DNA from: Ramlibacter sp.
Lineage (GTDB): Bacteria > Pseudomonadota > Gammaproteobacteria > Burkholderiales > Burkholderiaceae_C
Length of the DNA stretch: 64,000 nucleotides
NCBI RefSeq assembly: GCF_028291745.1
Contig: NZ_JAQGNQ010000056.1
Span: 1 to 64,000 of the forward strand
Reading direction: 5' to 3'
Below, piece by piece: positions 28,195 to 45,098 of this stretch (positions are counted from its first letter, which is position 1; every line of letters starts with the position of its first letter). The position numbers and the translations under genes were made by a program. The notes beneath the pieces are model-generated. The model did no database searches. It was not told the DNA's origin and saw nothing but the letters and a program-made list of their open reading frames with translations.

Positions 28195-30393
28195 TCAGGT
28201 CGCCAGCGCGGACTTGACCCGCGCCGGGTCGAACGGCATCTGGCGCAGCCGAACGCCGGTGAGCGCGTGGAACGCGTTGGCGACGGCGGCGCCCGTCATC
28301 GGCACGCCGAGTTCGCCGGCGCCGCTGGGCGGGCCGTCCGATGCCAGCATCGCCACCTGGATGTCGGGCACTTCGCTGGCGCGCAGCAGCGGGTAGTCGT
28401 GAAAATTGTTCTGCTGCACTTCGCCCTGCCGGATCGTGATGCGCTCCTTCAGCAGCCCCGACAGGCCGAAGACGATGCCGCCTTCGACCTGCGCGGCCAG
28501 GTTGCGCGGCTGGATCACCGGGCCGACGTCGACCGCGGCCCAGAAGCGATGCACGCGGATCACGCCGCTGGCGCGGTCGACCGAGATTTCGGCGACACCC
28601 GCAGCCATCGAGTTCTTCAGGGGCGCGAGCGCCAGGCCATGGGCGCGGCCGGCCGGCGCGGCGCCGAAGTTCGACATCGCCAGCACCTTGTCGAGCACCG
28701 CGCCGGCACGGGGATGGCCGGCCAGCATGCGCCGCCTGAAGCTCACCGGGTCCAGCTTCGCCGCGGCCGCGAGCTCGTCGACGAAACATTCGCTGGCGAA
28801 GCTGTTGTGGCCGCGGCCGATGCCGCGCCACGCGGCCACGCGCGCGCGCCGCGGTGTGAGCAGGTGCTCGGCGAGGAAATGTGGAACGGTGTACGGCGAA
28901 CCGTCGGCACCGGCCATCACCAGGGGATCGCGGTTGCCCATCTTCGCCAGCATCTGCGGCGTGTCGTAGCCGACGATCGACGGGCTCGCCACCCGGTGGT
29001 GCCAGGCGATCACGCGGCCGTCGACGTCGAGCGCGGCCCGCAGGCGATGCGCCGTGGCCGGACGGAACCAGCCGTTCTTGATGTCGTCTTCGCGCGTCCA
29101 GATCAACTTGACTGGCCGGCCCAGCTGGCGCGACAGGAGCAGCGCGTCACGCAGTAGTTCGCGCGCGAAGGTGGTGCGGCGGCCGAAGCCGCCGCCCATC
29201 TGCAAGGCATGGAAGCGGATGCGCTCGGGCGTGGTCTCGAGCAGCTCGGTGGCAATCGCCAGCGACGAAGTCTGGGCCTGCGTGCCGAGCCAGATCTCCG
29301 CGCCCTTGCCGTCGGCGTCCACCGCCGCGACGGCCGCCAGCGGTTCCATCTGCGCGTGATAAACGTGTTCGGTGGCGTAGCTGGCCTCCACCACCGTGGC
29401 CGCGCGCGCCAGCTCGCCGGGTGCGTCACCGCGCGGGAACCAGGGCACGCCGCGCTGCGCCGGATCGGCCGCGACGGCCACGTCGTGCGCCAGGTCGACG
29501 GTGCTGTCGGCGCTGCGGAAGGGCGAGCTGGTCGTCCATTCGACCGCCAGCACGGCGCGCGCCGCCAGCGCCGTGTCCCAGCGTTCGGCGACGACGGCCA
29601 CGGCGCCGGGCAGGCGCACCACCGCCAGCACGCCGGGCAAGGCCCTGGCGCGCGCATCGTCCACCGACACCACGGTCTCGCCTTCCACCGGCGCCCGCGC
29701 GACGCAGGCGTAGACCATGCCCGGCACGCGCACGTCGATGCCATACAGCGTCGCGCCCCGGGTCTTGGCCGGCAGTTCCAGCCGCGGCACATCGCGGCCG
29801 ATCAGGCGATACGCGCTGGCGGGCTTGAGGTCGGCCTCGGTGACGGCAGGCACCGCGGTCAGCGGCAACCCCAGTGCGACGACCTGGCCGAAGCGCAGGC
29901 GCCGGCCGTTGGCGCGGTCGACGATCGCGCCGGGCTCGGAGACCAGCGTCGCCGGCGGCACCGACCAGTGCCGCGCCGCCGTGTAGATCAACGCGCGCCG
30001 CATCGTCGCGCCGGCTTTGCGCAGGATGTCGTAATAGGCCTCGACCGAGGTGCTGCCGGCGGTGTAGAGCGCGCCGCCGAGCTTGCTGTTGCCGTAGGTG
30101 GCGGGGTCGTGGGTCACGGCCTCGACCCGCACCTTGGACCAGTCGGCATCGAGTTCCTCGGCCAGGATCAGCGGCAGCGCCGTCATGACGCCCTGGCCCA
30201 TTTCCATCGCCGCCAGGCGGATCGTGACGCTGTCGTCGCCATTGATGCTGACCCAGACGTTGGCCGGTGCGGCGCCCGATTGCGCGGATGCGCCGGACTC
30301 GAACACCAGCGCGCCGCCCGCCAGCACCGCGAGGCTCAGTGCGCCGCTGCCGCCGAGAAAGCCGCGGCGCGTCACGATGGGAAGCAGATTCAT
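28195..30393 (-). CDS. Tat-exported molybdopterin subunit, isoquinoline 1-oxidoreductase beta type
   Basis: A 732-residue protein with a twin-arginine leader (TRRGFLGGSGALSLAVLAGG). It has a single-chain IorB/CoxL-type Mo domain: VWVSINGDDSVTIRLAAMEM and GQGVMTALPLILAEELD, HALQMGGGFGRRT, CVARAPVEGETVVSVDD, and the catalytic Glu in GAGELGVPMTGAAVANAF. Relatives hydroxylate N-heterocycles or oxidise aldehydes and pass electrons through a 2Fe-2S subunit to cytochromes. Both needed partners, the 2Fe-2S protein at 31.3-31.8 kb and c-type cytochromes, are encoded in the same block. Folded co-export with the leaderless 2Fe-2S subunit via Tat is expected. Confidence 0.9.
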   Translation of the reverse strand: MNLLPIVTRRGFLGGSGALSLAVLAGGALVFESGASAQSGAAPANVWVSINGDDSVTIRLAAMEMGQGVMTALPLILAEELDADWSKVRVEAVTHDPATYGNSKLGGALYTAGSTSVEAYYDILRKAGATMRRALIYTAARHWSVPPATLVSEPGAIVDRANGRRLRFGQVVALGLPLTAVPAVTEADLKPASAYRLIGRDVPRLELPAKTRGATLYGIDVRVPGMVYACVARAPVEGETVVSVDDARARALPGVLAVVRLPGAVAVVAERWDTALAARAVLAVEWTTSSPFRSADSTVDLAHDVAVAADPAQRGVPWFPRGDAPGELARAATVVEASYATEHVYHAQMEPLAAVAAVDADGKGAEIWLGTQAQTSSLAIATELLETTPERIRFHALQMGGGFGRRTTFARELLRDALLLSRQLGRPVKLIWTREDDIKNGWFRPATAHRLRAALDVDGRVIAWHHRVASPSIVGYDTPQMLAKMGNRDPLVMAGADGSPYTVPHFLAEHLLTPRRARVAAWRGIGRGHNSFASECFVDELAAAAKLDPVSFRRRMLAGHPRAGAVLDKVLAMSNFGAAPAGRAHGLALAPLKNSMAAGVAEISVDRASGVIRVHRFWAAVDVGPVIQPRNLAAQVEGGIVFGLSGLLKERITIRQGEVQQNNFHDYPLLRASEVPDIQVAMLASDGPPSGAGELGVPMTGAAVANAFHALTGVRLRQMPFDPARVKSALAT

Positions 30394-30402
30394 GGATGTT
30401 CT

Positions 30403-30768
30403 CTAGTGGAGCGTCAACAGGAAGGCGACCAGGTCGGCCCGTTGCTGCGCGTCCGGCACCCCGGCAAACGGCATCAGGGTTCCGGCCAGCGCCTTCTGGG
30501 GCTCGGCGATGAAGGCGTCCAGCGAGCGGGCGTCCCAGACATACCCGGCGTTCTTCAGTGCGCGGCTGTAGCGAAAACCTTCGACGCTGCCGGCCTTGCG
30601 GCCGGCGATGCCCCGCAGGCTGGGGCCGGTGCCGAGGCTGCCATCGACCGAATGGCAGGCGGCGCATTGGGCGAAGGCGGCTTGGCCGGCCGTCGGGTCC
30701 TGCGCCAGGGCGGCGCCGGCGGCAGCGGCAAGCAGCACGGCAACGTTGTGCCGGAAGATTTTCAGCAT
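30403..30768 (-). CDS. Periplasmic mono-haem cytochrome c
   Basis: A 121-residue protein with a Sec signal peptide (MLKIFRHNVAVLLAAAAGAA). It has the haem motif CAACH, and axial Met in LAGTLMPFAGVPD, typical class I cytochrome c. It ends nine bases before the Mo-subunit ATG, which supports a role as electron acceptor of that enzyme. A second, three-haem cytochrome is encoded further upstream in the block. Confidence 0.9.
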   Translation of the reverse strand: MLKIFRHNVAVLLAAAAGAALAQDPTAGQAAFAQCAACHSVDGSLGTGPSLRGIAGRKAGSVEGFRYSRALKNAGYVWDARSLDAFIAEPQKALAGTLMPFAGVPDAQQRADLVAFLLTLH

Positions 30769-30790
30769 GGGTTGGCTCCGCGACCCATCG

Positions 30791-31288
30791 TCAGAGGACG
30801 CGCGGGCGCTCGACGTACGACGCGATGTCGTCGCCGACCCGCAGCGCCATCGCCGCCAGCGGACCGGTCGGGTTGTAGCCGGCGTTGTGCGGGAAGACCG
30901 AGGCGCCGACCACGAACAGGGTTGCCGTGCTGCGGCTTGCCGGCCAGCCAGGGCCTTGCATATAGCGCTTGGCGCCGCGGCCGAAGGCCCCGGCCAGCTG
31001 GCGGTCCATGAACACGGCCAGGCCGCAGTCGACGCCGTTCGGTGTGTACGCATCCGCCGGGCACATCACGTTGACCAGGGCCTCGACGAAGGCGGCCTCG
31101 TCCTGGCCGAAGCACAGGTAGCCGACCTGCGGTGTCGCCGCGGGCGCGGAGGGCGTGGCCGCCACCGCCTGCGCGGAGCCCGTCGCCGTGCCGGCAATCG
31201 CGAGCGCTTGCACGAGCGGCAGCGATCCGGTGGCGCCCACCACCTGCTTGAGGAATCCCCGGCGCTGGCCGGCGTGTCTTTCGGTCAT
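30791..31288 (-). pseudogene. Chimera: gluconate 2-dehydrogenase subunit 3 fused to GMC oxidoreductase tail
   Basis: A 165-residue open frame. Residues 1-110 are gluconate 2-dehydrogenase subunit 3-like: a Tat-type leader, then FVEALVNVMCPADAYTPNGV, AVFMDRQLAGAFGRGAKRYM. Around residues 112-122 the sequence switches to the C-terminal end of a GMC-family dehydrogenase: TLFVVGASVFPHNAGYNPTG and PLAAMALRVGDDIASYVERP. Normally these are two adjacent genes, small subunit then a flavoprotein of over 500 residues. An in-frame deletion of the subunit-3 tail and nearly all of the GMC gene explains this. The leftover protein cannot carry FAD, so I call it a broken gene, though it may still be translated. 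Confidence 0.72.
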
Positions 31289-31311
31289 CGTGATGTCTTC
31301 CCGGCTCTGCG

Positions 31312-31773
31312 TCAGGCGCCGTCGCCGTCTTTCGCCGCCCGCTCCACGGCGCGCACGATGCGGCTGTAGGTGCCGCAGCGGCACAGGTTGCGGTCCATGT
31401 GCTCGACGATCTGCTCGCGCGTGGGCGCCTTGACCTGCCGCAGCAGGGCCGCGGCCTGCATGATCTGGCCCGACTGGCAGTAGCCGCATTGCGGCACCTG
31501 CTCGGCGATCCACGCCTTCTGCAGCGGATGGTCGCCGCGCGGCGCCAGCCCTTCGATCGTGGTGATCGCCTTGCCGCGCACCTCGCCCACCGGCGTCACG
31601 CAGGCGCGCGCCGGCTGGCCGTCGACATGCACGGTGCAGGCGCCGCACACCCCGATGCCGCAGCCGAACTTGGTGCCGGTGAGGCCGATCTGCTCGCGCA
31701 GCACCCACAGCAGCGCGGTGCTGTCGGGCCCCTCACTGCGGACGGACTTGCCGTTGACTTTCAAAGTGGCCAT
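31312..31773 (-). CDS. 2Fe-2S subunit of isoquinoline 1-oxidoreductase-type enzyme
   Basis: A 153-residue ferredoxin-type small subunit. Cluster I: FGCGIGVCGACTVHVDGQ with the later Cys in ARACVTP. Cluster II: QCGYCQSGQIMQ and NLCRCGTYSRI. It has no leader, which suits Tat hitch-hiking with the IorB-like partner encoded three genes downstream. The separation of the two subunit genes by the chimeric gene and the cytochrome gene is unusual, and suggests insertion of a gluconate-dehydrogenase module into an iorAB pair, followed by its decay (inference). Confidence 0.9.
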   Translation of the reverse strand: MATLKVNGKSVRSEGPDSTALLWVLREQIGLTGTKFGCGIGVCGACTVHVDGQPARACVTPVGEVRGKAITTIEGLAPRGDHPLQKAWIAEQVPQCGYCQSGQIMQAAALLRQVKAPTREQIVEHMDRNLCRCGTYSRIVRAVERAAKDGDGA

Positions 31774-31780
31774 GGGGTTC

Positions 31781-32977
31781 TCATTCCTTGGCCGGCAGCC
31801 GGCGCAGCCAGGCCATCAGCGCGTCGACGTCACGGCCCTGGAGGGTGGCGAGGAAGGGCCACGGCATCGGGTACTGCAGCGGGCGGCCATCGCGCGAGAT
31901 GCCCTTGGTGAGCGCCCGCCTGATCTCGGCGTCGGTCCAGCCGCCCAGGCCGGCGGTCGGGTGCGAGGTGATGTTCGGCACCAGCAGTTTCTGCAGCCCG
32001 ACCCGCTTGCCGCCGCGGCCGCCGTCGGCCGCGATGTCGGTCTTGCCGCCGACCACCGGCGTGTGGCAGTCGAGGCAGTGGCCCAGGGTCGCGAGGTAGC
32101 GGCCGCGGGTGGCCTCGTCGGCCAGGACCTCTTGCGCCGTGAACGGACGCCGCGCATCGGGCACCTCCTCGGCGTGGAAGGGCTGGCGGTACACCGGCGC
32201 GGGGATCGGGTTGCGCTGCGGTGGCAGCGACAGCACGTAGGCCGCCACGGCGTCGAGGTCCTCCTCGGTCATGGCCTTGAAGAAGGCCACCGGCATCATC
32301 GGCGCCAGGGGCAGGCCGTTGGGCCGGACGCCTTGCGTCAGCGCGCGCTTGAGGTCCTCGGCCGACCAGCCGCCCAGCCCGGTCTCCGGGTCCGACGTCA
32401 GGTTGCCGGGCGTGACGCGGAACATCGGCGTGTCGTAGGTCCGGCCGCCTGAAAGTTCGCGGCCGGCGATGACCTTGTTGTCGTCGTCGCGCGGCGAGTG
32501 GCAGTTGCCGCAGGACAGCACGGAGTTGACCAGGTAGCGGCCGCGTTCGAGGACCCGCGGGTCGGCGGGGCGCTCCGATTTCTTCAGCGAGGCGGTGGAC
32601 GCCGCCGCGGTGGTCCAGGCCGGTGCAGCCGCCTGCGACGGCTGCGCGAGCGGCGCTGCCTGGGCGCTGCCGGGCGCCAGGCTCAGCACCCACAGCACCA
32701 GCTGGCGGGCCTCCGCCGGCGTCACCCGATTGGGCGGCATGGGCATCGTGCCCCATGCACCCGCGCTGCCCTGCAGAACCTTGGCGGTGAGCTTGTCGAC
32801 CGCCTCGGGCTGCCCGCGGTAGCGCGCCGCCACGTCCTGGTACGAGGGGCCCAGCAGCCGCTGGTCCACTGCGTGGCAAGCCAGGCAGTTCTTCTGCCGC
32901 GCGAGGTCCAGGTTGGCCTGCGCCGGCGCGGCCTGCGCCAGGGCCAGCGCGGCCCCCACAAGAAGGATCAACCGCAT
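31781..32977 (-). CDS. Tri-haem cytochrome c (dehydrogenase-associated)
   Basis: A 398-residue exported protein with a signal peptide (MRLILLVGAALALAQAAPAQ) and three CxxCH haem motifs: CLACH, CGNCH and CLDCH. Each sits in its own cytochrome c domain, with axial-Met candidates such as AWGTMPMPPNRV, APMMPVAFFKAM and QYPMPWPFL. Multi-haem subunits of this sort take electrons from periplasmic alcohol/aldehyde dehydrogenases and Mo hydroxylases to the respiratory chain. The gene lies 8 bp after DoxX and 7 bp before the 2Fe-2S subunit gene. Confidence 0.88.
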   Translation of the reverse strand: MRLILLVGAALALAQAAPAQANLDLARQKNCLACHAVDQRLLGPSYQDVAARYRGQPEAVDKLTAKVLQGSAGAWGTMPMPPNRVTPAEARQLVLWVLSLAPGSAQAAPLAQPSQAAAPAWTTAAASTASLKKSERPADPRVLERGRYLVNSVLSCGNCHSPRDDDNKVIAGRELSGGRTYDTPMFRVTPGNLTSDPETGLGGWSAEDLKRALTQGVRPNGLPLAPMMPVAFFKAMTEEDLDAVAAYVLSLPPQRNPIPAPVYRQPFHAEEVPDARRPFTAQEVLADEATRGRYLATLGHCLDCHTPVVGGKTDIAADGGRGGKRVGLQKLLVPNITSHPTAGLGGWTDAEIRRALTKGISRDGRPLQYPMPWPFLATLQGRDVDALMAWLRRLPAKE

Positions 32978-32985
32978 GGCCGGAC

Positions 32986-33471
32986 TCAGGCGAACAGCTG
33001 CCGCAGCCGCCGGTGACGCTGCACGAAGCTGCCGCGCCCGGCGAGCGCATCGAGGCCGGCCAGATGGCCGGCGCGCGCCGCGGCCAGGTACAGCAGGACG
33101 CCCGCATAGACCAGGTGCTGGTCGACGATGAAGTCGGTCCGGTTCTCGATGTAGGGCCAGTCCATGTGCGCCAGCCAGTACAGGAGCATCAGCACCGCGC
33201 CGCAGGGCGCGCTGACCCGCACCATGAGGCCGGCCAGCAGCGACAGGCCGATCAGCAGATGGCCATAGGCCACCAGTGTGCTGACCAGCGGCGCCGCCGC
33301 CGGCGCCGCCAAGACGGCAAAGAAGTCGTGGAAGGTCCTGGTGTGGCCCAGGAACCCGGCCACGCTGAAGCCGGGGGCGAAGACCTGGCTCCATCCCGCG
33401 TAGAGGAAGGTCCAGGCCATCGCCAGGCGCAGGTAGAGGAGCAGCGCCTTGCTGGCGGGAATGGCCGGCAT
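32986..33471 (-). CDS. DoxX-family membrane protein
   Basis: A 161-residue inner-membrane protein with four hydrophobic segments (LYLRLAMAWTFLYAGWSQVF, LLIGLSLLAGLMVRVSAPCG, AVLMLLYWLAHM, QHLVYAGVLLYLAAARAGH). It matches the DoxX/SURF4-like family, which often accompanies quinone-reducing or thiosulfate-oxidising systems. It is preceded by GGAGCTGAG; its ATG falls one base after the stop of the upstream binding-protein gene. A function in passing electrons from the cytochromes or in quinone interaction is possible but not shown. Confidence 0.82.
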   Translation of the reverse strand: MPAIPASKALLLYLRLAMAWTFLYAGWSQVFAPGFSVAGFLGHTRTFHDFFAVLAAPAAAPLVSTLVAYGHLLIGLSLLAGLMVRVSAPCGAVLMLLYWLAHMDWPYIENRTDFIVDQHLVYAGVLLYLAAARAGHLAGLDALAGRGSFVQRHRRLRQLFA

Positions 33472-33472
33472 C

Positions 33473-34579
33473 TCAGCTCCCCGGCTCCGGCGTCGGGCCC
33501 AGCACCGGCTCGCCCTTGATCGGGCCGATGTACGACTCGAAGCGCTTGCGCAGATCGGCGACCAGCGCCTCGTCCTCGACGAACTCGCGGAAATTGTTGG
33601 CCAGGCGGTAGCTGGTGATCGGCTGCAGCCCGCCGGTCGCCGGCACATCCGCGCGCGTCGGCCACATGCCGGCGCTCGCCTGGTAGTCCTTGGACAGCAG
33701 CCAGGCCTCGAACAGGCGCGCCGCGTTCGGATGCGGGCAGTCCTTGAAGATGCCGCAGCGCAGGGTGAAGATCGGCACCAGGTCGTCGACCGGGAAGGAC
33801 ACCTTGGTGCGGCCCTTGTTGGTCGGCATGTTGGCGGTGGCGACGGTGGCGTCGAAGGACGCGATGGCACGGCCGCGGGCGATCTCCTCCGCCACCCCGA
33901 CGTGGCCGCGAATGAACCGCGGCTGGTTGGCCATCAGGCCGTCCATCCACTTCCAGCCGTACTTCTGCACGATCGTGTGGTAGTTGAAGAGCGAGACGTC
34001 GTCGTCGTGCGGATAGTTCGAGATGATCTTGCCGCCGCGAAAGCGCGGATGCAGGAAGTCCAGCGCCGACTTCGGCACGTCCGCAGGCGCCAGCAGGCTG
34101 CCGTTGTACGCATAGACGATGGCCGAGACGCGCACGCCGATGCTGCCGCCGTCCGCATCCTTGAAAGCTTCGTGCACGCCGCCGTAGGTGGGGCCGCGAT
34201 AGAGCGCCATCGCGCCGGCCCGCTTCCAGCGGTCGAAGTCCTGCACGGTCTGCAGCAGCGTGACGTCCACCTCCAGCTTGCGGGCGGCGAGCTGCTGGTC
34301 GATGCGCGGCGCCAGCTCGTTGCTGTTGCCGGACGCGATGTTCACCTGGATGCCGGGAAACATCTTCGAAAAACCGTCGGCAGCCTGCCGGTGGGCGGCG
34401 ATCGGGCCGCCGCCGTAGTAGGTGATGCTGCCTTCGCGCCTGGCCGCGGCGTACAGGCTTTCGAGCGTGTCGGCGGGTGCGAGTGTCGCGCAGCCGGGCA
34501 GGTAGGCGGCGCCGCCCGCGGCCAGCACGGAAGTGAGAAAGCGGCGGCGCGGGCCGCCCTGGAATTCATGTGAGGACAA
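33473..34579 (-). CDS. Extracellular solute-binding protein (copy 1, Tat-type lipoprotein)
   Basis: A 368-residue periplasmic binding protein of the PotD/iron-binding AfuA class. The leader PRRRFLTSVLAAGGAAYLPG-C has both a twin-arginine-like RRRF and a lipobox Cys. The mature core is SITYYGGGPIAAHRQAADGF, FPGIQVNIASGNSNELAPRI and SALDFLHPRFRGGKIISNYP. TTG 34579 is taken as the start because AGGAGACCC lies at proper distance and this frame yields the leader. It is paralogous to the next gene. No ABC permease or ATPase gene is in the window, so it could serve an unlinked transporter or sense substrate. Confidence 0.82.
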   Translation of the reverse strand: MSSHEFQGGPRRRFLTSVLAAGGAAYLPGCATLAPADTLESLYAAARREGSITYYGGGPIAAHRQAADGFSKMFPGIQVNIASGNSNELAPRIDQQLAARKLEVDVTLLQTVQDFDRWKRAGAMALYRGPTYGGVHEAFKDADGGSIGVRVSAIVYAYNGSLLAPADVPKSALDFLHPRFRGGKIISNYPHDDDVSLFNYHTIVQKYGWKWMDGLMANQPRFIRGHVGVAEEIARGRAIASFDATVATANMPTNKGRTKVSFPVDDLVPIFTLRCGIFKDCPHPNAARLFEAWLLSKDYQASAGMWPTRADVPATGGLQPITSYRLANNFREFVEDEALVADLRKRFESYIGPIKGEPVLGPTPEPGS

Positions 34580-34618
34580 GCTGGGTCTCCTGGATGTTGT
34601 TGTCGTTGTGTGGCCTGG

Positions 34619-35698
34619 CTACAGCACGATGTCGCCAGCCACTGGGCCGATGGCGGCCTCGAAGCGCTTGCGCAGGTCGGCGACCAGCGGCTCGTTCATG
34701 ATGAAGTCCTTGAACTGCGAGGCCACGTTGTACGAGGCGATGGGCTTCAGGCCGCCGGCCGGCGTGGCGTCGGTGCGGGTCGACCACACGCCCTGGCGCG
34801 CCTGGTAGTCGCTCGAAAGCAAAAAGGCCTGGAACAGCTTGGCGGCATTCGGGTGCTTCGCCTGCTTGAAGATGCCGCAGCGGGTTTCCCAGATCGGCAC
34901 CTGGTCCTCGGCCGGGAACGCCACCAGGATCCGGCCGCCGCCGGCAGCGGTCATCGCGGCGGTGCTCCCCGCGGAGATGTCGAACGACACCGCCGCGCGG
35001 CCGCGCGCGACTTCCTGCGCGGTGCCGAGGTGGCCGCGGATGAAGCGCGGCTGGTTGGCCAGCAGTCGGTCCAGCCAGCCCCAGCCGTACTTCTGCACGA
35101 TCGTGTAATAGAGGTACAGCGTGATCTCGTCGTCGTGCGGGTAGGTCGAGATGACCTTGCCGCTGAACCTCGGGTGCAGGAAGTCCAGCGCCGACTTCGG
35201 CACGTCCTGCGGCGCCACGAGATCGGGGTTGTAGCCGTAGGCGAGCGCGAACACGCGCACCGCGACGCTGGCGCCGTCGGGGTCCTTGAAGGTGTCGGCC
35301 ACGCGGCCGAACTCCGGCCCGCGGTAGGGCAGCAGCGCGCCGGCGCGCCGCCAGCGCACATAGTCCTGGATCGTCTGCAGCGTGGCCAGGTCGGTCTCGA
35401 CCCGGTTGCCGGCCAGCTGCTGGTCGATGCCGGTGACCAGGTCGCGGCTGTAGCCGCTCACCAGCTTGACCTCGATGCCCGGGTAGGCCTTGGTGAACTG
35501 CTCGATCGAATTGCGGTGCGCGGCCGCGGGGCCGCCGCCGCAATAGACCACCGATGCTTCCTGCCTGGCCCTGGCGTACAACTGGGCCAGCGTGTCGGGC
35601 GCCGTCGTGGCGCAGCCGGGCAGGCCGGCGGCCGCGCCGCCGGCGACCAGCGCGGTCTTCAGGAACTGCCGCCGCCCGGCCTCTTGATGCATGGACAT
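34619..35698 (-). CDS. Extracellular solute-binding protein (copy 2, Tat-type lipoprotein)
   Basis: A 359-residue paralogue of copy 1. Leader GRRQFLKTALVAGGAAAGLP-GC, then ASVVYCGGGPAAAHRNSIEQ, YPGIEVKLVSGYSRDLVTGI, PKSALDFLHPRFSGKVISTY and NQPRFIRGHLGTAQEVARGR. The last segment matches NQPRFIRGHVGVAEEIARGR of copy 1 at most positions. ATG 35698 is preceded by AAGGAGACCCC. The tandem arrangement indicates local duplication followed by divergence, probably giving two ligand specificities. Confidence 0.85.
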   Translation of the reverse strand: MSMHQEAGRRQFLKTALVAGGAAAGLPGCATTAPDTLAQLYARARQEASVVYCGGGPAAAHRNSIEQFTKAYPGIEVKLVSGYSRDLVTGIDQQLAGNRVETDLATLQTIQDYVRWRRAGALLPYRGPEFGRVADTFKDPDGASVAVRVFALAYGYNPDLVAPQDVPKSALDFLHPRFSGKVISTYPHDDEITLYLYYTIVQKYGWGWLDRLLANQPRFIRGHLGTAQEVARGRAAVSFDISAGSTAAMTAAGGGRILVAFPAEDQVPIWETRCGIFKQAKHPNAAKLFQAFLLSSDYQARQGVWSTRTDATPAGGLKPIASYNVASQFKDFIMNEPLVADLRKRFEAAIGPVAGDIVL

Positions 35699-35723: not shown

Positions 35724-36815
35724 TCAGAAGGTCGTGCGCAGGCCGATTTCCGTGCCCGACGAGGTCGCGTTGGGCGAGCCCGGCAGGCCCGAACCGTTGC
35801 CGACGGTGAGCCCCATGCCGCTCTTGTTGGCGATGCGGGCGTACGACGCGTAGATCGCGGTCTTGATCGAGAAGTTGTAGACGTAGCCGATCGCGTACTG
35901 GTTGGCCTTCGAGTCCGCGGCGTTGTTCTGCGACACGGTCTGCAGCGCCACCGGGATGTAGCCGGAGCCCAGCGGGATCTTGGCGCCGATCATGTAGCTG
36001 CTGTAGCGGGTGCCCGGCATGCCGCTGTTGGCGATGCCGTATTCGCCGTACAGCTTGACGACGCCGAGGTCCCAGGCGCCGCCGGCGTTGGTCTGGGTGT
36101 AGTCCCGCACCGAGGCCAGCTTGGTCTTCGAATAGGCGATCGAGCCGTTGAAGGCGCCGTAGCGATAGCCGACCAGCGCCGCGACCACATCGCCGTCCGA
36201 GGCCGTGGCCGTTCCGGAGGTGCCTTCGCCCATGGCGTATTGCGCCTGCCCGTACAGCCCCACCCGGTTGTCGACATAGACGGAGGAGTTGTAGACGTAG
36301 CCGATGCTGTTGGAGTTGCGCATCGCGTTGACGCCCGCACCGGAGGTGCCGGCAAAAGCCAGGTTGGTCGCGCTCGCGACGCCGCTGGCCAGGAACGGGT
36401 CCCACCACACGTTCTGCCAGACCGTGGGGTTGTAGTCGCGGCCCAAGCGCAGTTCGCCGGCCGGAGTGAACAGGCTGACGGTGGAACGCCGGTTGAACGA
36501 GAACCCCGATTGCCCGGTGCCGTTGCCGGAGGCCGTGTTGTTGGTGTTGCTCCCGCTGCCGGCGCCGGTGTCGGTGGCGAACTGCCCCTCGATCCAGAAG
36601 CCCGCGGCCAGGCCGCCGCCCAGGTCTTCGGTGCCGCGGAAGCCCAGCCGGCTGGCCTGGTTGCCGCCGCTGACCATCTTGGTGACCGACTGGACGCCGG
36701 CTACGTTGTAGTGGCCGACCGTCGCGTCGACGAAGCCGAAAATGGTCACGTTCGATTGCGCGAGCGCCAGGGTCGAAGCGCCGCAAGCGAGCGCACATAC
36801 GATAAGTTTCTTCAA
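35724..36815 (-). CDS. Gram-negative porin (Burkholderiales type)
   Basis: A 363-residue outer-membrane beta barrel. Signal peptide: MKKLIVCALACGASTLALAQ. First strand: SNVTIFGFVDATVGHYNVAG. Typical porin segments are SRLGFRGTEDLGGGLAAGFW, and the C-terminal strand ends EIGLRTTF with the terminal Phe needed for Bam insertion. The start is TTG 36815 with GGAGACAAA just upstream. Inside a catabolic block such porins commonly admit the substrate (inference). Confidence 0.92.
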   Translation of the reverse strand: MKKLIVCALACGASTLALAQSNVTIFGFVDATVGHYNVAGVQSVTKMVSGGNQASRLGFRGTEDLGGGLAAGFWIEGQFATDTGAGSGSNTNNTASGNGTGQSGFSFNRRSTVSLFTPAGELRLGRDYNPTVWQNVWWDPFLASGVASATNLAFAGTSGAGVNAMRNSNSIGYVYNSSVYVDNRVGLYGQAQYAMGEGTSGTATASDGDVVAALVGYRYGAFNGSIAYSKTKLASVRDYTQTNAGGAWDLGVVKLYGEYGIANSGMPGTRYSSYMIGAKIPLGSGYIPVALQTVSQNNAADSKANQYAIGYVYNFSIKTAIYASYARIANKSGMGLTVGNGSGLPGSPNATSSGTEIGLRTTF

Positions 36816-38733: not shown

Positions 38734-40182
38734 TCAGGCCAGGGTCTCGTGGTAGTAATGCTTGGTGGCGAGGAAGTCGTTCAGACCTTCGGCGCCGTGC
38801 AGCCGGCCGTACCCGCTGTCACGCTGGCCGCCGGTCTCGGCTTCGGCGAACAGGCGGTTGTGCGTGTTGCTCCAGACCGTGCCGCTGCGCAGCCGGCCGG
38901 CGACGCGCCGGGCCTTGCGCGCGTCCTCGGTCCACACGCTCGCCGCCAGGCCGTAGCGCGTCGCATTGGCGCGCCGCACCGCCTCGTCTTCGTCGCGGAA
39001 GCGTTCGATCACCAGCAGCGGCCCGAACAGTTCCTGCTGCACCAGCGGACTGGCGAGGTCTTCGACCTCCACCAGGCTGGGCTCGATGAACGCGCCGGCC
39101 AGCGGCAAGCCACCGGGCGCACGGCCGCGCAACAGGACGCGGTGATTGCGCCCGGCCTCCGTCACGAGGGCGTCGATGCGGTCGCGGTTGCCGCGGTCGA
39201 TCAGGCAGCCCATGTCGGAGCCGGGGTCGCGGCCGCGGCCGACCTTGACCGCCTTCAGGGCATCGGCGAGTCGCCTGGAGAAATCGGGATAAATCGCGTC
39301 GTCGACGAGCACGCGGGCGATCGCGGTGCATTGCTGGCCCGCGAGGACCAGCGCGCCGGACACGATGCCGGCGATGGTGCGGTCGATCGCGCAATCGCGG
39401 AACACCAGCGCCGGCGCCTTGCCCCCGAGCTCCAGCGACAGCCGCGCCAGCGTGTGGGACGCGCTCATCGCGATCGCCTTGCCGACCGCGGTCGAACCGG
39501 TAAAGCTGATCACGTCGACATCGGGCGAGGCGCACAGCGTGCGCGACACCTCGGAGCCCGACTCGATCACCGAGTTGACGACGCCGGGCGGCAGCAACGG
39601 GTCGGAGACCAGCGCTTCCAGCACCAGGTTGTGCGCCAGCGCAGTCTGGGGCGCCGGCTTGATGACCACCGTGCACCCGGCGGCCAGCGCCGGCGCCAGC
39701 GAGCGCACCAGCAGCGTGATCGGCGCGTTCCAGGGCAGGATGATCACGGCGAGGCCGGCGGCCTCGCGCTCCAGCGAGGCATGGCAGCCGGGCGCCACCT
39801 CGATGACGCGGCCGAACAGGTTGCGCGCCAGGCCGGCGTAGTAACGCAGCTCCGAGATGGCGGCCACGACTTCACCCATGGCTTCGCGCCACAGCTTGCC
39901 ATTGAGGGTCACGAGCCAATCGGCCACCCGGTCCTTGGACGCATCGAGCCGGTCGGCGAAGCCCAGCAACACGTCGGCGCGCAGGCGCGGGCTGTGCGCC
40001 CACAGGCCGGCTTCAAAAGCCTGGAGGGCGGCGCCGACGGCGGCCTCGGCCTCCGGCGCTCCGCCTTCGCTGAAGTGGCAAGCGGGCTCGCCGCTGGCGG
40101 GATCGACGGCGATGCCCACGCGTTCCTGGCCGTCGATGGAGGGCAGCCAGTGGCCGTCGATGTAGTGAAGGGCGGTTTGCAT
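38734..40182 (-). CDS. NAD(P)-dependent aldehyde dehydrogenase
   Basis: A 482-residue protein of the ALDH superfamily. Oxyanion Asn152 is in ILPWNAPITLL. The NAD loop is VISFTGSTAVGKAIA, general base Glu251 is in LELGGKAPALV, and nucleophile Cys285 is in LAGQQCTAIARV. It converts an aldehyde to the acid. It is the first gene of the twelve-gene minus-strand block and divergent from a LysR gene. ATG 40182 fits the standard N-terminus (MQTALHYIDGHWLPSIDG). A TTG at 40221 would add 13 non-conserved residues and overlap the promoter module, so it is not used. The visible Shine-Dalgarno is weak. Confidence 0.92.
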   Translation of the reverse strand: MQTALHYIDGHWLPSIDGQERVGIAVDPASGEPACHFSEGGAPEAEAAVGAALQAFEAGLWAHSPRLRADVLLGFADRLDASKDRVADWLVTLNGKLWREAMGEVVAAISELRYYAGLARNLFGRVIEVAPGCHASLEREAAGLAVIILPWNAPITLLVRSLAPALAAGCTVVIKPAPQTALAHNLVLEALVSDPLLPPGVVNSVIESGSEVSRTLCASPDVDVISFTGSTAVGKAIAMSASHTLARLSLELGGKAPALVFRDCAIDRTIAGIVSGALVLAGQQCTAIARVLVDDAIYPDFSRRLADALKAVKVGRGRDPGSDMGCLIDRGNRDRIDALVTEAGRNHRVLLRGRAPGGLPLAGAFIEPSLVEVEDLASPLVQQELFGPLLVIERFRDEDEAVRRANATRYGLAASVWTEDARKARRVAGRLRSGTVWSNTHNRLFAEAETGGQRDSGYGRLHGAEGLNDFLATKHYYHETLA

Positions 40183-40205
40183 TGCGGCGCGAGTATGGAG
40201 ATCGA

Positions 40206-40259
40206 GGTATGCACCGACCAATGATTTTTTGATCTAATCCATGTCTCACAGAACATACC
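40206..40259. promoter_or_regulatory. Shared promoter module, copy 1 (candidate LysR target)
   Basis: Words in order: GGTATG (40206), CCAATGATTTTTT (40218), TCCATG (40238), CATACC (40254). The outer GGTATG/CATACC are an inverted pair. The same four words occur at identical spacing at 44415-44467 before the VOC dioxygenase operon. It lies in the 86-bp gap between the divergent ALDH and LysR starts. Confidence 0.75.
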
Positions 40260-40268
40260 GAGAGAACG

Positions 40269-41186
40269 ATGGACTGGACCCACCGGCTGCGCTTGCGCAA
40301 CCTGCAGATGCTGATCAGCCTCGCCGAGACGCGTAACGTCAGCCGCTCCGCCGAACTGCTTCACACGACCCAGCCGGGTCTGTCGAAATGGCTGAAGGAG
40401 ATCGAGACCGACATCGGACTGCCGCTGTTCGAGCGCCACGCGCGCGGCCTGCGGCCCACTGCGTACGGCGAAGCGCTGCTGCGCCATGCGCGCCGCGTCG
40501 AAGCCGAACTCGATCGCGGCCGCGACGAGATGACGGCGCTGCGGCAAGGCGCCAGCGGGCTGGTGATGATCGGTGCCTCCGGCGCCGCCGCGCCCGACGC
40601 GGCGCCGATGGCGGTGCTGGCCTTGCTGCAGGCGATGCCGCAAGTTCGCGTGCGCCTGGTGGAGAACACGATGGACGAATTGATCCGGCAACTGCAACGC
40701 GGCGAGCTCGACCTGGTGGTGGGCCGTTCGGCGCCGGAGCACAACCAGGCAATGCTGGAGTCCGAGGACCTGCACGACGAGCAAGTCCACTTCGTCGCGC
40801 GCGCCGGACATCCGCTGCACCGGCGGCGCCAGCTCGGTTGGGCCGACCTGCGCCGCTACCGCTGGATCCTGTGGCCCAACGGCACGCCGATCCGCGCCAT
40901 CTTCGACGCGGCGCTGGCGCATGCCGGTGAGATTGCGCCCGACGATCACCTGCAGCTGAACTCGATGACCGCCAACCTGGCGTTGCTGGCCGGCAGCGAC
41001 ATGCTCAGCATCGTGTCGGACCGCGCCGCGGCTCGTTACGAGCAGCTGAAGATCCTGCGCCGCCTGCCCTTGCGGCTGCACGCGCACGGCACCGTCGCGA
41101 TGTATTGGCGCAGCGACGTGTTGCGCTCCGCCGCGGTCGATGAGGCCATCGCCTGCCTGCGATCCGTCGCCGGCGCGCGGGCCTGA
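40269..41186 (+). CDS. LysR-family transcriptional regulator (candidate regulon master)
   Basis: A 305-residue LTTR. HTH: LRNLQMLISLAETRNVSRSA and TQPGLSKWLKEIETDIGLPL, LFERHARGLRPTAYGE. Effector domain: GLVMIGASGAAAPDAAPMAV ... ELDLVVGRSAPEHNQAM ... WPNGTPIRAIFDAALA. It belongs to the GbpR/CbpR-like LTTR subgroup (long opening MDWTHRLRLRNLQ). It is divergent from the ALDH operon and convergent with the FAH operon. Presence of its adjoining promoter module in front of both operons makes it the likely regulator of both. Confidence 0.9.
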   Translation: MDWTHRLRLRNLQMLISLAETRNVSRSAELLHTTQPGLSKWLKEIETDIGLPLFERHARGLRPTAYGEALLRHARRVEAELDRGRDEMTALRQGASGLVMIGASGAAAPDAAPMAVLALLQAMPQVRVRLVENTMDELIRQLQRGELDLVVGRSAPEHNQAMLESEDLHDEQVHFVARAGHPLHRRRQLGWADLRRYRWILWPNGTPIRAIFDAALAHAGEIAPDDHLQLNSMTANLALLAGSDMLSIVSDRAAARYEQLKILRRLPLRLHAHGTVAMYWRSDVLRSAAVDEAIACLRSVAGARA

Positions 41187-41214
41187 AGCCCGCTGCCGGC
41201 TGCGAGGTCCATCG

Positions 41215-42147
41215 TCAACTGATCAGGGTCCTGAGCCGGCCCAGGCTCTCGATCTCGACGATCACCTCGTCCCCCGGCTGCAGGAACTGCTGGTGCGCGC
41301 TGCCGACGCCCGAAGGCGTGCCGGTCAGCACCACGTCGCCCGGGTAGAGCGTGCGCAGCTGCGACAGGTGGGCAATCTGTTCGGCGGCGCTGTAGATCAT
41401 CTCGGCGGTGCTCGAGTCCTGCTTCAGCGCATCGTTGACCCAGAGCCGGATCGCGAGCCGCTGCGGGTCGGCGACGGCGTGGGCCGGCGTGAGCCACGGG
41501 CCCAGCGGGCACGAGCCCTCGAAGCCCTTGTGCGCCAGCCAGTCGAAACGGAACGCCGACTCGGCACCGACCTGCGGCCGGCGACTCAGGTCGCGCGCCG
41601 ACAGGTCGTTGGCGACCATGTAGCCGGCGACATGGGCCAGCGCGTCTTCGGGCGCGACACGGCGCGCCTCCGTGCCGATCAGCACCGCCAGTTCGGCCTC
41701 CCAGTCGAGACGCTCGCAGCCGGCCGGCCGCTCCACACTGGCGCCCGGATCGGCGACGCAGCTGCGCGCGGGCTTGATGAAGTGCCAGGGCGCAAAGCCC
41801 GACACCTTGGGGTCGGGTTCGGGCGTGCGGTTCTGGATGCGCGCCATCTCCTGCACATGGTCGCGGTAGTTGACGCCGGCGCAGTACAGCGCACCGAAGC
41901 GCGCCAGCGGTGCGAGCAGCGTGGTGCCGGCGAGCGGCTGCGACGGCAACTTGGCGCTGTCGCTGGCCGCAAGCGCGGCGCGCAAGCGCCGGTCGAAAGC
42001 CGGCCAGTCGGCCAGCGGGTCGGCCGCATCGGCGTCCTCGAAGCCCGCCAGGTCGCGCAAGGCGAGGACCCGGGCGCCTTGCAACACCCCGGCGCGGGCG
42101 GCGCCGTGTTCGTCACGGAAGCGCAGGATCCTGTAGTTGCTGGTCAT
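41215..42147 (-). CDS. Fumarylacetoacetate hydrolase-family protein
   Basis: A 310-residue protein with the FAH fold. Substrate-binding YCAGVNYRDHVQEM lies near residue 90, metal-binding segments contain ERLDWEAELAVLIG and MVANDLSARDLSRRPQ, and the end has YPGDVVLTGTPSGVGSAHQQ. These are the E/E/D residues for Mg2+ of FAH, fumarylpyruvate hydrolase and homoprotocatechuate isomerase. Such enzymes hydrolyse or decarboxylate ring-cleavage products, matching the dioxygenase at the head of the same operon. The start is 7 bp after the Bug receptor stop. Confidence 0.9.
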   Translation of the reverse strand: MTSNYRILRFRDEHGAARAGVLQGARVLALRDLAGFEDADAADPLADWPAFDRRLRAALAASDSAKLPSQPLAGTTLLAPLARFGALYCAGVNYRDHVQEMARIQNRTPEPDPKVSGFAPWHFIKPARSCVADPGASVERPAGCERLDWEAELAVLIGTEARRVAPEDALAHVAGYMVANDLSARDLSRRPQVGAESAFRFDWLAHKGFEGSCPLGPWLTPAHAVADPQRLAIRLWVNDALKQDSSTAEMIYSAAEQIAHLSQLRTLYPGDVVLTGTPSGVGSAHQQFLQPGDEVIVEIESLGRLRTLIS

Positions 42148-42154
42148 GGGCGGC

Positions 42155-43111
42155 TCACTCGGGCTGGAGGTTGATGGCGCGGATCACCTGCGTCCAGCGC
42201 GCCGCGTCGCGCTTGACGACAGCGGCCATCTGCGCCGGCGTGTTGCCCACGGGTTGGGCCTGCCAGCTGCGAATGCGCTGGTTGTTGGCCGGGTTGGCCA
42301 GCGCGTGGACGAACGCCGCGTTGAGCCGGTTGACGATGGCGGCCGGCGTGCCGGGCGGCGCGACGACGCTCATCCAGGTTTCCGACTCGTAGCCAGGCAG
42401 CACCTCGCCGATCGCGGGCGTGTCCGGATAGGCGGGGTTGCGCTTGGCGCTGCCGACGCCCAGCAGCTTGACCTTGCCCGACTGGATGAAGGGCGTGGCC
42501 GAGATCAGGTTGTCGAACATGACGTCGACCGTGCCGCCGATCAGGTCGCTGGCTGCGCCAGCCACGCCCCGATACGGCACGTGCGTCATGTCGATGTGGG
42601 CGGCGCTCTTCATCATCTCGGCGCTGAGGTGCTGGTTGGTGCCGGCGCCCGGGCTGGCATAGGTCAGCCTGGCGCCCTTGTCGCGGACCAGGGACAACAA
42701 CTCGCGCACGTCCTTCGCCGGTAGCTTGGGGCTTCCGAGCAGCACGCTCGGATACGAGGCCAGGATGGTGATGCCCATGAAGCGCATCGGATCGAAGCTG
42801 ACCTTGTACAGCAGCTCGGTGAAGAAGAAGCCGACCGGGACCACCATCAAGGTGTACCCGTCGGGCTCGGCATGCGCGACCACGTTGGCGGCGAGGACGC
42901 CACCGGCGCCAGCCCGGTTGTCCACCACCACCGGCACGCCCAGGTCGGCCGAGAGCTCGGGCACCAGCAGGCGCGGCAGCAGGTCGGCCGTGCCGCCGGG
43001 CGGGAACGGCACGACGATGTGGATGGGCTTGTCCGGGAATTTCTGCGCCGATGCGGCGGCACAGAAGCACAGCGCAAGAGCCGCAAGGAAGCGGCGGGTC
43101 ATTGTCTTCAT
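42155..43111 (-). CDS. Bug-type tripartite tricarboxylate transporter receptor
   Basis: A 318-residue periplasmic protein with a Sec leader (MKTMTRRFLAALALCFCAAA). The Bug fold signature is FPDKPIHIVVPFPPGGTADL, then GVPVVVDNRAGAGGVLAANV, TYASPGAGTNQHLSAEMMKS, and the closing ARWTQVIRAINLQPE. It binds carboxylated ligands for TctAB-type permeases, which are not in the window; many Bug proteins in Burkholderiales are orphan. In this operon it probably captures the aromatic or oxo-acid substrate. Confidence 0.93.
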   Translation of the reverse strand: MKTMTRRFLAALALCFCAAASAQKFPDKPIHIVVPFPPGGTADLLPRLLVPELSADLGVPVVVDNRAGAGGVLAANVVAHAEPDGYTLMVVPVGFFFTELLYKVSFDPMRFMGITILASYPSVLLGSPKLPAKDVRELLSLVRDKGARLTYASPGAGTNQHLSAEMMKSAAHIDMTHVPYRGVAGAASDLIGGTVDVMFDNLISATPFIQSGKVKLLGVGSAKRNPAYPDTPAIGEVLPGYESETWMSVVAPPGTPAAIVNRLNAAFVHALANPANNQRIRSWQAQPVGNTPAQMAAVVKRDAARWTQVIRAINLQPE

Positions 43112-43127
43112 CGGGAGTCCTGATAAG

Positions 43128-44342
43128 TCAGTTCAAGGGGCCCAGGTACGCTTCGCCCTCGTACACGTCGCTGGTGGCGGCAGCGATGGCGGGCCACGCC
43201 GCGGGGTCCTGTTCAATGGCTTGCGTAGGCCGCGGGCGGCCGTCCCAGCCGATCTGGTCCATGCGGTAGTACAGCTGGATGGCGTTGCCGTCCGGATCGA
43301 TGGCGAAAAACTGGTAGTCGATGCCGGGGAAAAGCGCCGCGGGCAAGGTCCGGATCGTCACGCCCTCCGCCTTCAGGAAGGTCAGTGCCTGCCGCAGTTG
43401 GGCATAGCTGCCAAGCTGGAAGCCGAACGACATCAGCGTGGTCGATGCACTCAGTTGCAGGGACTCGCGCAGGGCCAGCGGGTAGAGCGCGACCGAGTGG
43501 TGCTCGGTGTTGGCGCGCAGGAAGGCGCAGCGATGGCCTTCATGCACGACCTCCTCGGTGACGCGCAGGCCGAGCGCGTCGCGATAGAACGCCTGGGCCT
43601 GCGCGACATCGTCGACGAACAGCCGCACCGGCCCGACGCGCGCGACCTTGAAGGGCCGTGCCAGCAGCACGCCCTCGACGTCGTGCACTTCCGGCGCGGT
43701 CTCCATGCCGCGCAGTCCGGCGTCCGGCCGCAAACCCGCCTGCAACGCCTCGGAGACCTCCGCATATTCGGAGCGCTGCGGCAGCGCCGGAGTCGTCTCA
43801 TGGCGCAGCTTGTGCGCCTCGCGCGGCTTGGCGTGGCCGCTCCAGCCGATCTGCTCGATGCCGTAGTACAGCTCGTTGATGTGGCCGTTCGGGTCGGGCG
43901 GATAGAAGTGCCAGTTGGAACCGGGAACGTCGCGGCCGGCGCGCAGGACCTTGCGGCCGCTGGCCGCGAACCATTCGAAGCCGCGCACCACTTCCTGCAG
44001 GCTGCCGACCTGCCAGGTGATCTGGTTGACGGTGCTTTGCGGATGCTCGCGGAAGTGCGGGCTGACGACCTCCATCACGCGCCGCGGGAACAGCACGAAC
44101 GAGTGGTGATCGGTGCCATGGCGCAGGAAATAGCCGCGCGTCGGGCCCAGCTGGTCGCGCTGTTCGGGCGGCAGGCGCGCGCCGAAGTCGATCGGGTCGG
44201 ACACGCGCAGGCCCAGCAGCCGTTGGTAGAAATCCAGCGAGCGCTCGGGGTTCTGCACATTGATGCCGAAATGGCCGAGACGCCGGATCTTGAAGGGCTG
44301 GGGCAGCCAGACCCCCCCGACGTCGAAGGTGCTTGCTTGCAT
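43128..44342 (-). CDS. Two-domain VOC-family (extradiol-type) dioxygenase
   Basis: A 404-residue protein with two vicinal-oxygen-chelate modules. Module 1: RRLGHFGINVQNPERSLDFY (His24), RHGTDHHSFVLFP, and GHINELYYGIEQIGW, whose Glu completes a 2-His-1-Glu iron site. Module 2: GPVRLFVDDVAQAQAFYRDA, ANTEHHSVALYP and GNAIQLYYRMDQIGW. In module 2 the first His and the Glu are replaced (RLFVDD, NAIQL), so only one module is likely to bind iron. It is predicted to cleave a catechol meta to the hydroxyls. The operon continues with Bug and FAH genes. Confidence 0.82.
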   Translation of the reverse strand: MQASTFDVGGVWLPQPFKIRRLGHFGINVQNPERSLDFYQRLLGLRVSDPIDFGARLPPEQRDQLGPTRGYFLRHGTDHHSFVLFPRRVMEVVSPHFREHPQSTVNQITWQVGSLQEVVRGFEWFAASGRKVLRAGRDVPGSNWHFYPPDPNGHINELYYGIEQIGWSGHAKPREAHKLRHETTPALPQRSEYAEVSEALQAGLRPDAGLRGMETAPEVHDVEGVLLARPFKVARVGPVRLFVDDVAQAQAFYRDALGLRVTEEVVHEGHRCAFLRANTEHHSVALYPLALRESLQLSASTTLMSFGFQLGSYAQLRQALTFLKAEGVTIRTLPAALFPGIDYQFFAIDPDGNAIQLYYRMDQIGWDGRPRPTQAIEQDPAAWPAIAAATSDVYEGEAYLGPLN

Positions 44343-44414
44343 GGTTGGACTTGTCTCCTGCGTCGTCGGTGAGCGGACGCGTCGATGAATCTGCGCGCCA
44401 GTGTCCGGGACGCA

Positions 44415-44467
44415 GGTATGACCGGTCCAATGACTTTTTCGTCTGGTCCATGCATTGCACGGCATAC
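44415..44467. promoter_or_regulatory. Shared promoter module, copy 2 (candidate LysR target)
   Basis: GGTATG (44415), CCAATGACTTTTT (44427), TCCATG (44447) and CATAC (44463) have start-to-start spacing of 12, 20 and 16 bp, identical to the copy at 40206-40259. It lies 73 bp before the VOC dioxygenase ATG, outside any coding region. Confidence 0.75.
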
Positions 44468-44762
44468 GTCCGGCGACGCCGCAGCCGCCGTCCCGTCGGC
44501 CGCTTTACAGCGTCAGGCCGATCGCGCGCTCGACGTCGCGCCGCGAAGCGCCAGCGACCCGAGCCGTGGCGGACGAAGGTGTCGAACATGTCGTTGACAC
44601 GCAGCTGCGTGGACGTGGACTCCGCGCCGGCGACCTGCAGCTTCGCTGCGCGCGCTTCGCGCAGCGCGGCTTCGACGATGGGTGCCGCGGTCGCCAGCGG
44701 CAGCGCTGCGGCAGGCGGCGGCAGGCGGCGGCATGTCAGAGAATGCTGTTGTCTTTGTGGTC

Positions 44763-44795
44763 GTGTCACTAAGTCACCTGGTGACTTAGTGACAC
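44763..44795. promoter_or_regulatory. Perfect 33-bp palindrome, candidate GntR operator
   Basis: GTGTCACTAAGTCACC and GGTGACTTAGTGACAC are perfect 16-bp inverted arms around a central T. Each arm holds two GTCAC words (GTCAC-TAA-GTCAC), so the site is a direct repeat within a palindrome, suited to binding two dimers. It is 26 bp upstream of the truncated GntR gene. The rest of 44343-44820 holds no gene I can support: a minus-strand frame from GTG 44769 has no recognisable domain and dissolves into Arg-rich sequence. Confidence 0.8.
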
Positions 44796-44820: not shown

Positions 44821-44997
44821 ATGGGCACCTCCAGCAAGCTATCCTGGGCCCCATCGCGCCCGCTCGACCGGGGCAACGCCGCCCAACGCAGCCTGGAAGA
44901 CCTCCGGCTCGACATCCTCGGCGGGCGCTTTCCGCGCGGGGCCAAGCTGCTGACCGAGCGCGAGCTGGCGGCGGGCTACGGCGTCAACCGCAACGCC
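44821..44997 (+). pseudogene. Truncated GntR-family regulator (HTH only, broken)
   Basis: The frame gives an N-terminal extension, then SLEDLRLDILGGRFPRGAKL and LTERELAAGYGVNRNA, the first two thirds of a GntR winged helix. Where family members continue with VREALRxLexxGLV, this sequence changes abruptly to YYRLRDERSHSRQKNGQ and runs into DNA antisense to mntH. The second half of the wing and the whole effector domain are gone. The adjacent palindrome was probably its operator. Confidence 0.75.
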
Positions 44998-45098
44998 TAC
45001 TACCGATTGCGCGATGAGAGGTCCCACTCTCGTCAGAAAAACGGCCAAAAAAATGCATCCGGACACCGCTCCCGGTTGGCACGCGCCCTGCGGGCCGG

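Follow-up and report, generated by a model that had tools for sequence, protein, structure and literature searches.

LysR-type regulators of gentisate breakdown are the closest described counterparts of the element analyzed here. GtdR of Cupriavidus necator H16 is described, in the sections of PMC11603403 consulted, as activating PgtdA with the ring-cleavage product 3-maleylpyruvate as its primary inducer, and MhbR of Klebsiella pneumoniae M5a1 is named in part of PMC3572157 as a LysR activator of a gentisate cluster. We analyzed a 64,000-nucleotide stretch of a Ramlibacter sp. genome (contig NZ_JAQGNQ010000056.1, positions 1 to 64,000; hereafter the window), in which a 54-bp module stands beside a lysR gene (P1) and again upstream of a second gene run (P2). 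On comparison with sites beside related LysR genes, P1 and P2 are very probably operators of this LysR (40269-41186), which would regulate an aldehyde dehydrogenase/thiamine-diphosphate (TPP) enzyme gene run and a run encoding a VOC protein, a TctC-type receptor and a fumarylacetoacetate (FAA) hydrolase-family enzyme. The three features at the center of this reading are as follows.

40206..40259, minus strand (targets on the minus strand): P1, proposed 54-bp operator/promoter module separating lysR from the aldehyde dehydrogenase run, found by pattern, matrix, profile R1 and comparison of the copies
44415..44468, minus strand: P2, the other copy of this module, preceding the VOC-TctC-FAA hydrolase run, found by pattern, matrix, profile R1 and comparison of the copies
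40269..41186, plus strand: LysR-type regulator that groups with the LysR proteins of gentisate clusters (GtdR/MhbR group), from domains, homology and tree

An original prediction, made from the letters of the window, had described two promoter copies with equal word spacing. A pattern search of the window located GGTATG-N6-CCAATGA-N13-TCCATG-N10-CATAC at 40206-40258 and 44415-44467 with 0 mismatches, so that the pair is borne out with both copies exact. Allowing up to 3 mismatches added no third site in the window, and 100 dinucleotide shuffles gave 0 matches. Across the whole genome (5,490,137 bases in 148 contigs), again at up to 3 mismatches, the word pattern occurred only at P1 and P2, and the reversed control pattern gave 0 matches. 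The many stray chromosomal matches that the prediction had proposed to look for are thus absent, whether by the pattern at this tolerance or by profile R1 (described below) at E≤10. P1 and P2 are identical at 37 of 54 positions, and their flanks at 3-9 of 20 positions in each of seven 20-base blocks, which shows that the likeness ends at the module edges.

The window LysR carries an N-terminal HTH_1 domain (E 1.8e-17) and a C-terminal LysR_substrate domain (E 1.2e-35), as fits LysR-type regulators. Its gene is divergent from the aldehyde dehydrogenase run with P1 next to its own start (40182 to 40269), the usual LysR layout. The search for relatives covered 299 family genomes and 399 order genomes, each set being a sample of a larger group; 10 of the 299 held a LysR at E≤1e-70 (own one included) and 9 of the 399 at E≤1e-85 (own one and one repeat included). 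The 16 relatives from other genomes are 40-59% identical to the window protein (14 at 51-59%, the others at 49% and 40%). The DNA-binding domain is 72-82% identical to that of 14 of 15 relatives (54% in genome G126), against 35-53% for the effector domain. A tree sets the window LysR and its relatives apart from two own-genome paralogues (98/95).

Fifteen of the 16 relative loci were examined at 14-16 kb, their gene content being assigned by tblastn with probes taken from the relative loci and named by eye; G065, with a contig of 3.9 kb, was used for its site only. The probes match genes annotated gtdA, FAA hydrolase family and maiA on a plasmid of Pseudomonas sp. XWY-1. Gentisate 1,2-dioxygenase-like, fumarylpyruvate-hydrolase-like and maleylpyruvate-isomerase-like genes are present in 13 of the 15 loci, and in 10 of 15 the first probe match running divergently from lysR is the dioxygenase-like gene, at a distance of 159-231 bp. 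Two plasmids carry annotated genes of this kind beside the LysR: gtdA and maiA in Pseudomonas aeruginosa, gentisate 1,2-dioxygenase and mhbM in Klebsiella aerogenes. By these sequence comparisons the window LysR belongs with the GtdR/MhbR-type, or gentisate-type, regulators. The original choice of the adjacent LysR as the likely regulator is upheld, with this grouping added as a correction. When plasmid DNA was searched with the cluster, 240 records matched in some part, none of them over 80% of its length.

In 13 of 15 loci the sequence upstream of lysR aligns without gaps to an 80-bp stretch around P1; in G150 the left box is shifted by two bases. A matrix was built from those 13 LysR-upstream sites of other genomes, the window being excluded. 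Two loci with no site next to lysR (L051 and L052) were left out of the matrix; their sites, found elsewhere in the loci, were included in alignment A1. Over 127,894 window positions the matrix scored P1 at 42.1, P2 at 26.6 and the next best position at -4.9; another contig search yielded one distant LysR (24%), whose locus (L006) reached -2.3 at best. A1 comprises 17 sites from 16 other genomes, ungapped over 54 columns, among them a second G126 site and the G065 site. The profile derived from it, R1, has exactly two matches in the own genome at E≤10, P1 (E 0.009) and P2 (E 0.14), both over columns 2-37. Searched at E≤0.01 in 23 chosen genomes, R1 matched 16 of 16 LysR carriers (by construction) and 0 of 7 others, the latter having no LysR at E≤1e-70 (family) or E≤1e-85 (order); in 117 family genomes at the same threshold it matched 5, all LysR carriers, 4 of them in the training set. 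Strong sites outside the training set stand beside related LysR genes in G728 (57.2) and Burkholderia cenocepacia (59.1).

In 14 of 16 relative genomes a site is located no more than 150 bp upstream of the lysR start. In G500 it is found about 120 bp upstream of a gentisate-dioxygenase-like gene whose run converges on lysR, as the P2 run does, and in G640 before a phenol-2-monooxygenase-type gene; these positions indicate that the site tracks targets and not lysR alone. As judged by comparison, then, the operator of the GtdR/MhbR group is predicted upstream of the window targets, with an altered half-site, and the earlier proposal of a regulator-bound element at two promoters is upheld to that extent. 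Operator-like second sites are seen elsewhere in the LysR group: G080 has one 12.5 kb away, before a branched-chain-type permease gene (L078 7077-7127), and G126 one between two MFS transporter genes (L045 6302-6355), so that, by sequence, two-site arrangements are not peculiar to the window. We met no description of this operator in the literature searched, including parts of PMC6449761, PMC3572157 and PMC11603403. A 54-bp operator definition for the LysR group is useful for predicting gentisate-type regulons from sequence.

The anatomy of the module was read from the 17 relative sites and transferred to the window, with the following elements.

40240..40257, no strand assigned: P1 dyad CATG-N10-CATA, proposed LysR recognition site, on the far side from the target and beside the LysR start
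44449..44466, no strand assigned: P2 dyad CATG-N10-CATA, proposed recognition site
40206..40224, no strand assigned: P1 target-side boxes GGTATG and CCAATGA, putative activation site (conserved columns 4-5, 15-17)
44415..44433, no strand assigned: P2 target-side boxes GGTATG and CCAATGA, putative activation site (same conserved columns)
40192..40221, minus strand: P1 possible -35 TTGGTC (40216-40221) and -10 CATACT (40192-40197), by eye and from the ATTAT block of the relatives

Invariant in 17 of 17 relative sites are AT at columns 16-17, ATA at 36-38 and TAT at 49-51; T5 (in the AT box of columns 4-5), A15 and C35 (the last in 16 of 17) are near-invariant in A1. Columns 35-51 of the relatives form the dyad CATA-N10-TAT with the spacing T-N12-A. 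The GGTATG/CATACC ends had been taken for a conserved inverted repeat; this has to be given up, as the invariant dyad of the 17 relatives is CATA-N10-TAT in the right half. In the cases inspected the target gene lies on the module side away from the dyad, and in the standard LysR plan the recognition dyad is away from the promoter and the activation boxes are near -35. Most relatives have ATTAT or a near match 10-14 bases past the module on the target side, with TTAT in register in 10 of 13 matrix sites, and we presume this block, read on the target strand, to be a -10 element. The corresponding bases of P1 are AGTAT, and at the place matching the P1 -10 the sequence of P2 is GGACAC.

Both window sites have CATG-N10-CAT, that is G38/C49 where 17 of 17 relatives have A38/T49, and the change is complementary across the dyad. 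Such a symmetric change, common to P1 and P2, is what a single reader of both sites with a somewhat altered preference would be expected to leave, and the resulting departure of the right half from the relatives would account for the confinement of R1 to columns 2-37. Among the first 72 residues of the LysR, residues 16, 24, 45 and 72 differ from every relative compared (a comparison made without L045, Klebsiella and the two own-genome paralogues), and no supportable residue explanation for the half-site change was found among residues 1-72.

We suggest that a LysR tetramer would most likely place one dimer on the far dyad CATG-N10-CAT for recognition and the other on the target-side boxes, reaching into the promoter for activation. 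On binding a pathway metabolite, LysR may activate P1, and with it the aldehyde dehydrogenase/TPP-enzyme genes, as well as P2, which would serve the VOC/TctC/FAA-hydrolase genes. It probably also represses itself at P1: 11 bases separate the end of the P1 dyad from the start codon of lysR, and bound LysR should hinder its own expression because the site abuts that start.

The genes behind the two modules, all on the minus strand, are listed below.

38734..40182, minus strand: aldehyde dehydrogenase, first gene behind P1
36941..38722, minus strand: thiamine-diphosphate-requiring enzyme, decarboxylase-like (NF006203 above cut-off)
35724..36815, minus strand: porin
33473..35698, minus strand: two solute-binding proteins (34619-35698 and 33473-34579), 57-59% alike
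28195..33394, minus strand: cytochrome c proteins (31781-33394 and 30403-31053), [2Fe-2S] subunit (31312-31773) and molybdopterin subunit (28195-30393)
43128..44342, minus strand: VOC (glyoxalase/extradiol dioxygenase superfamily) protein, first gene behind P2
42155..43111, minus strand: TctC-type solute receptor
41215..42147, minus strand: fumarylacetoacetate-hydrolase-family enzyme, convergent with LysR

P1 lies between the aldehyde dehydrogenase ATG (40182, minus) and the LysR ATG (40269, plus), and P2 is 72 bases upstream of the VOC start set at 44342 (minus). This start agrees with the alignments to VOC protein relatives, which begin at query residues 1-6; a longer in-frame VOC open reading frame from an ATG at 44465 exists and would place P2 inside the frame. 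Given the start at 44342 both copies read as intergenic, as had been claimed. Behind P1 successive genes are 7-258 bp apart; behind P2, where the VOC-TctC-FAA hydrolase run heads towards the lysR 3' end, the distances are 7-16 bp. From strand and spacing, the minus-strand genes from the aldehyde dehydrogenase through the molybdenum-oxidase genes would form one operon, and the P2 run probably forms another. The ring cleavage ascribed to the second operon is only suggested for the VOC protein, whose NCBIfam matches fall far below cut-off. Taken as a whole, the original prediction is partly supported.

Several further observations concern the surroundings of these genes. The two adjacent solute-binding genes at 33473-35698 (57-59% identical) are apparently a tandem duplication, and their identified neighbors are the porin and a cytochrome c gene, with no transporter subunits. 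A second TPP enzyme of the own genome (L094, G000 C88:67082-68794) is 65% identical to the one behind P1 and has no module in its 1.5-kb flanks. Beyond P2, at 44763-44795, there is an odd palindrome, GTGTCACTAAGTCACC-T-GGTGACTTAGTGACAC, with perfect 16-bp arms, which occurs once in the window. It is 25 bases upstream of an open reading frame (44821-45708) with a weak, below-cut-off GntR-type match, and could be the operator at which the putative regulator encoded there controls itself.

A number of results weigh against the reading of P1 and P2 as operators of the adjacent LysR. R1 covers just columns 2-37 at both window sites, and at E≤0.01 it calls P1 alone in the own genome. The dyad spacing, in the relatives as in the window, is T-N12-A versus the textbook T-N11-A, a spacing typical of LysR recognition sites though not a strict definition of them. 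P2 is without the ATTAT block and has GTGTC at that position, while a transcript started from the presumed -10 of P1 would have next to no leader ahead of the aldehyde dehydrogenase ATG at 40182. A consensus promoter scan found none at P1 or P2; consensus promoters are commonly missing at activator-dependent promoters. Distant relatives beside gentisate genes score weaker: the Klebsiella aerogenes site, directly upstream of its lysR, scores 23.1, that of the P. aeruginosa plasmid 14.7, and the Pseudomonas sp. XWY-1 site -1.6, second best in its locus. With strong sites in the near group and weak ones in distant relatives, the operator definition applies within the near group and loses force outside it. 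Furthermore, the 13 loci examined out of 14 with VOC gene relatives (partial L036 left out) are all without the module, with a best score of 1.4, and 11 loci with TPP enzyme relatives, searched in flanks of up to 1.5 kb (distant promoters would be missed), show no clear module: 10 of the 11 score -3.9 or lower, and L086 scores 15.9 without a dyad by eye. Neither target is thus backed by a like arrangement with orthologous genes.

Three other explanations were considered. It is improbable, yet the most serious of these, that P1 alone works, in control of lysR and the divergent genes, and that P2 is a decaying or weak copy without regulatory effect. By its scores P2 is indeed the weaker of the two sites, its matrix score and E value falling below those of P1 (26.6 versus 42.1; 0.14 versus 0.009), and its -10 block is poor; in the congener G728, too, a second weak site (16.7) stands before apparent gene remnants. 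However, P2 retains the consensus of the relatives at 19 of 25 well-conserved columns and has the half-site change in common with P1, and the modules are alike and exactly spaced between unlike flanks. We consider it very unlikely that the likeness of P1 and P2 reflects a recent segment duplication, kept by descent and not by selection. None of the 17 relatives comes as near to either copy (best 35 and 31) as the copies come to each other (37/54), but the flanks, compared over 80 bases on the left and 60 on the right, show no homology beyond the module, the 20-base blocks there matching so poorly, and the identity is concentrated in the well-conserved columns (23 of 25, versus 14 of 29 elsewhere in the module).

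That a different regulator, for example another LysR of the own genome, binds the module and that the adjoining lysR is coincidental has in its favor the 59 LysR-protein matches of the genome at E≤0.001 (window LysR included) and the resemblance of LysR operators to each other. We nevertheless regard it as highly improbable: the site is present in the loci of 16 of 16 LysR relatives and in 0 of 7 genomes without such a LysR at the search thresholds, and the loci of the two closest own-genome paralogues (35% identical) have no such site (-24.5 and -11.6). Control of both runs by the adjacent LysR, through P1 and P2, is the explanation that we favor. Under it, two uncharacterized gene sets become parts of a single hypothetical pathway, and the regulator provides a case, open to test, in which targets and half-site preference change together.

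The window LysR seems to have been rewired from gentisate breakdown to other genes. No gentisate dioxygenase or isomerase probe matched in the window at E≤1e-15, and the hydrolase probe matched just a 36% paralogue; on another contig of the own genome there is a 60-residue dioxygenase fragment match (42%), with no module within 1.5 kb. As the window gave no dioxygenase or isomerase match at that threshold, we did not file its LysR as a gentisate regulator. Within the genus, a LysR at E≤1e-70 was found in 2 of 60 genomes, the own one and G728, and the two proteins pair in the tree (91/84, below the starred level). The G728 LysR is divergent from a TctC-aldehyde dehydrogenase-TPP-enzyme operon, with its strong site (57.2) between them; this aldehyde dehydrogenase and TPP enzyme are just 34% and 26% identical to those of the window. 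The weak G728 site (L083 6520-6573) is in the place corresponding to P2 and precedes what look by eye like class II aldolase and amidase gene remnants. In the window/G728 branch of LysR, an aldehyde dehydrogenase/TPP-enzyme pathway appears to have taken the place of gentisate cleavage as the process served. We speculate, as something possible and short of probable, that a gentisate-type LysR was captured in one lineage by two non-gentisate gene sets, with complete 54-bp operators and all four half-sites co-shifted (CATA..TAT to CATG..CAT). If so, a regulator and two operators would have co-evolved during assembly of a new aromatic or keto-acid pathway, and G728 would be a second, independently assembled case.

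Among the described LysR systems, the CatR/ClcR/TfdR group resembles the window in that its members regulate aromatic operons from a gene divergent from the target, but the consensus given for it in part of PMC6449761 is AkACC-N5-GGTAT, with T-N11-A, whereas CATR-N10-YAT is found here. PcaQ, the protocatechuate regulator (TIGR02424), is the best NCBIfam match of the window LysR; at 172.3 bits against a cut-off of 303.8 the protein is not PcaQ, and the PcaQ site reported in the portion of PMC3572157 consulted, ATAAC-N5-GTTAT, differs from the window module. MhbR is represented in our comparison by the Klebsiella aerogenes plasmid relative, not by the M5a1 protein; this relative is 40.3% identical to the window LysR, lies beside mhbM and gentisate dioxygenase and has a moderate site (23.1), so that its identity is lower and its neighbors are other. 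With GtdR and PgtdA of C. necator H16 the window shares a LysR-type gene beside a catabolic operon and, as proposed here after the account in part of PMC11603403, activation with a pathway intermediate as inducer. The window LysR differs in adjoining aldehyde dehydrogenase/TPP-enzyme and VOC genes, with no gentisate dioxygenase match in the window, and in having two promoters and an altered half-site. The likeness to GtdR runs through the relatives rather than through the C. necator protein and promoter themselves: by probe names, the dioxygenase-hydrolase-isomerase-monooxygenase-transporter order of the C. necator cluster, as given in that part of PMC11603403, is matched in G576, G604 and Burkholderia cenocepacia.

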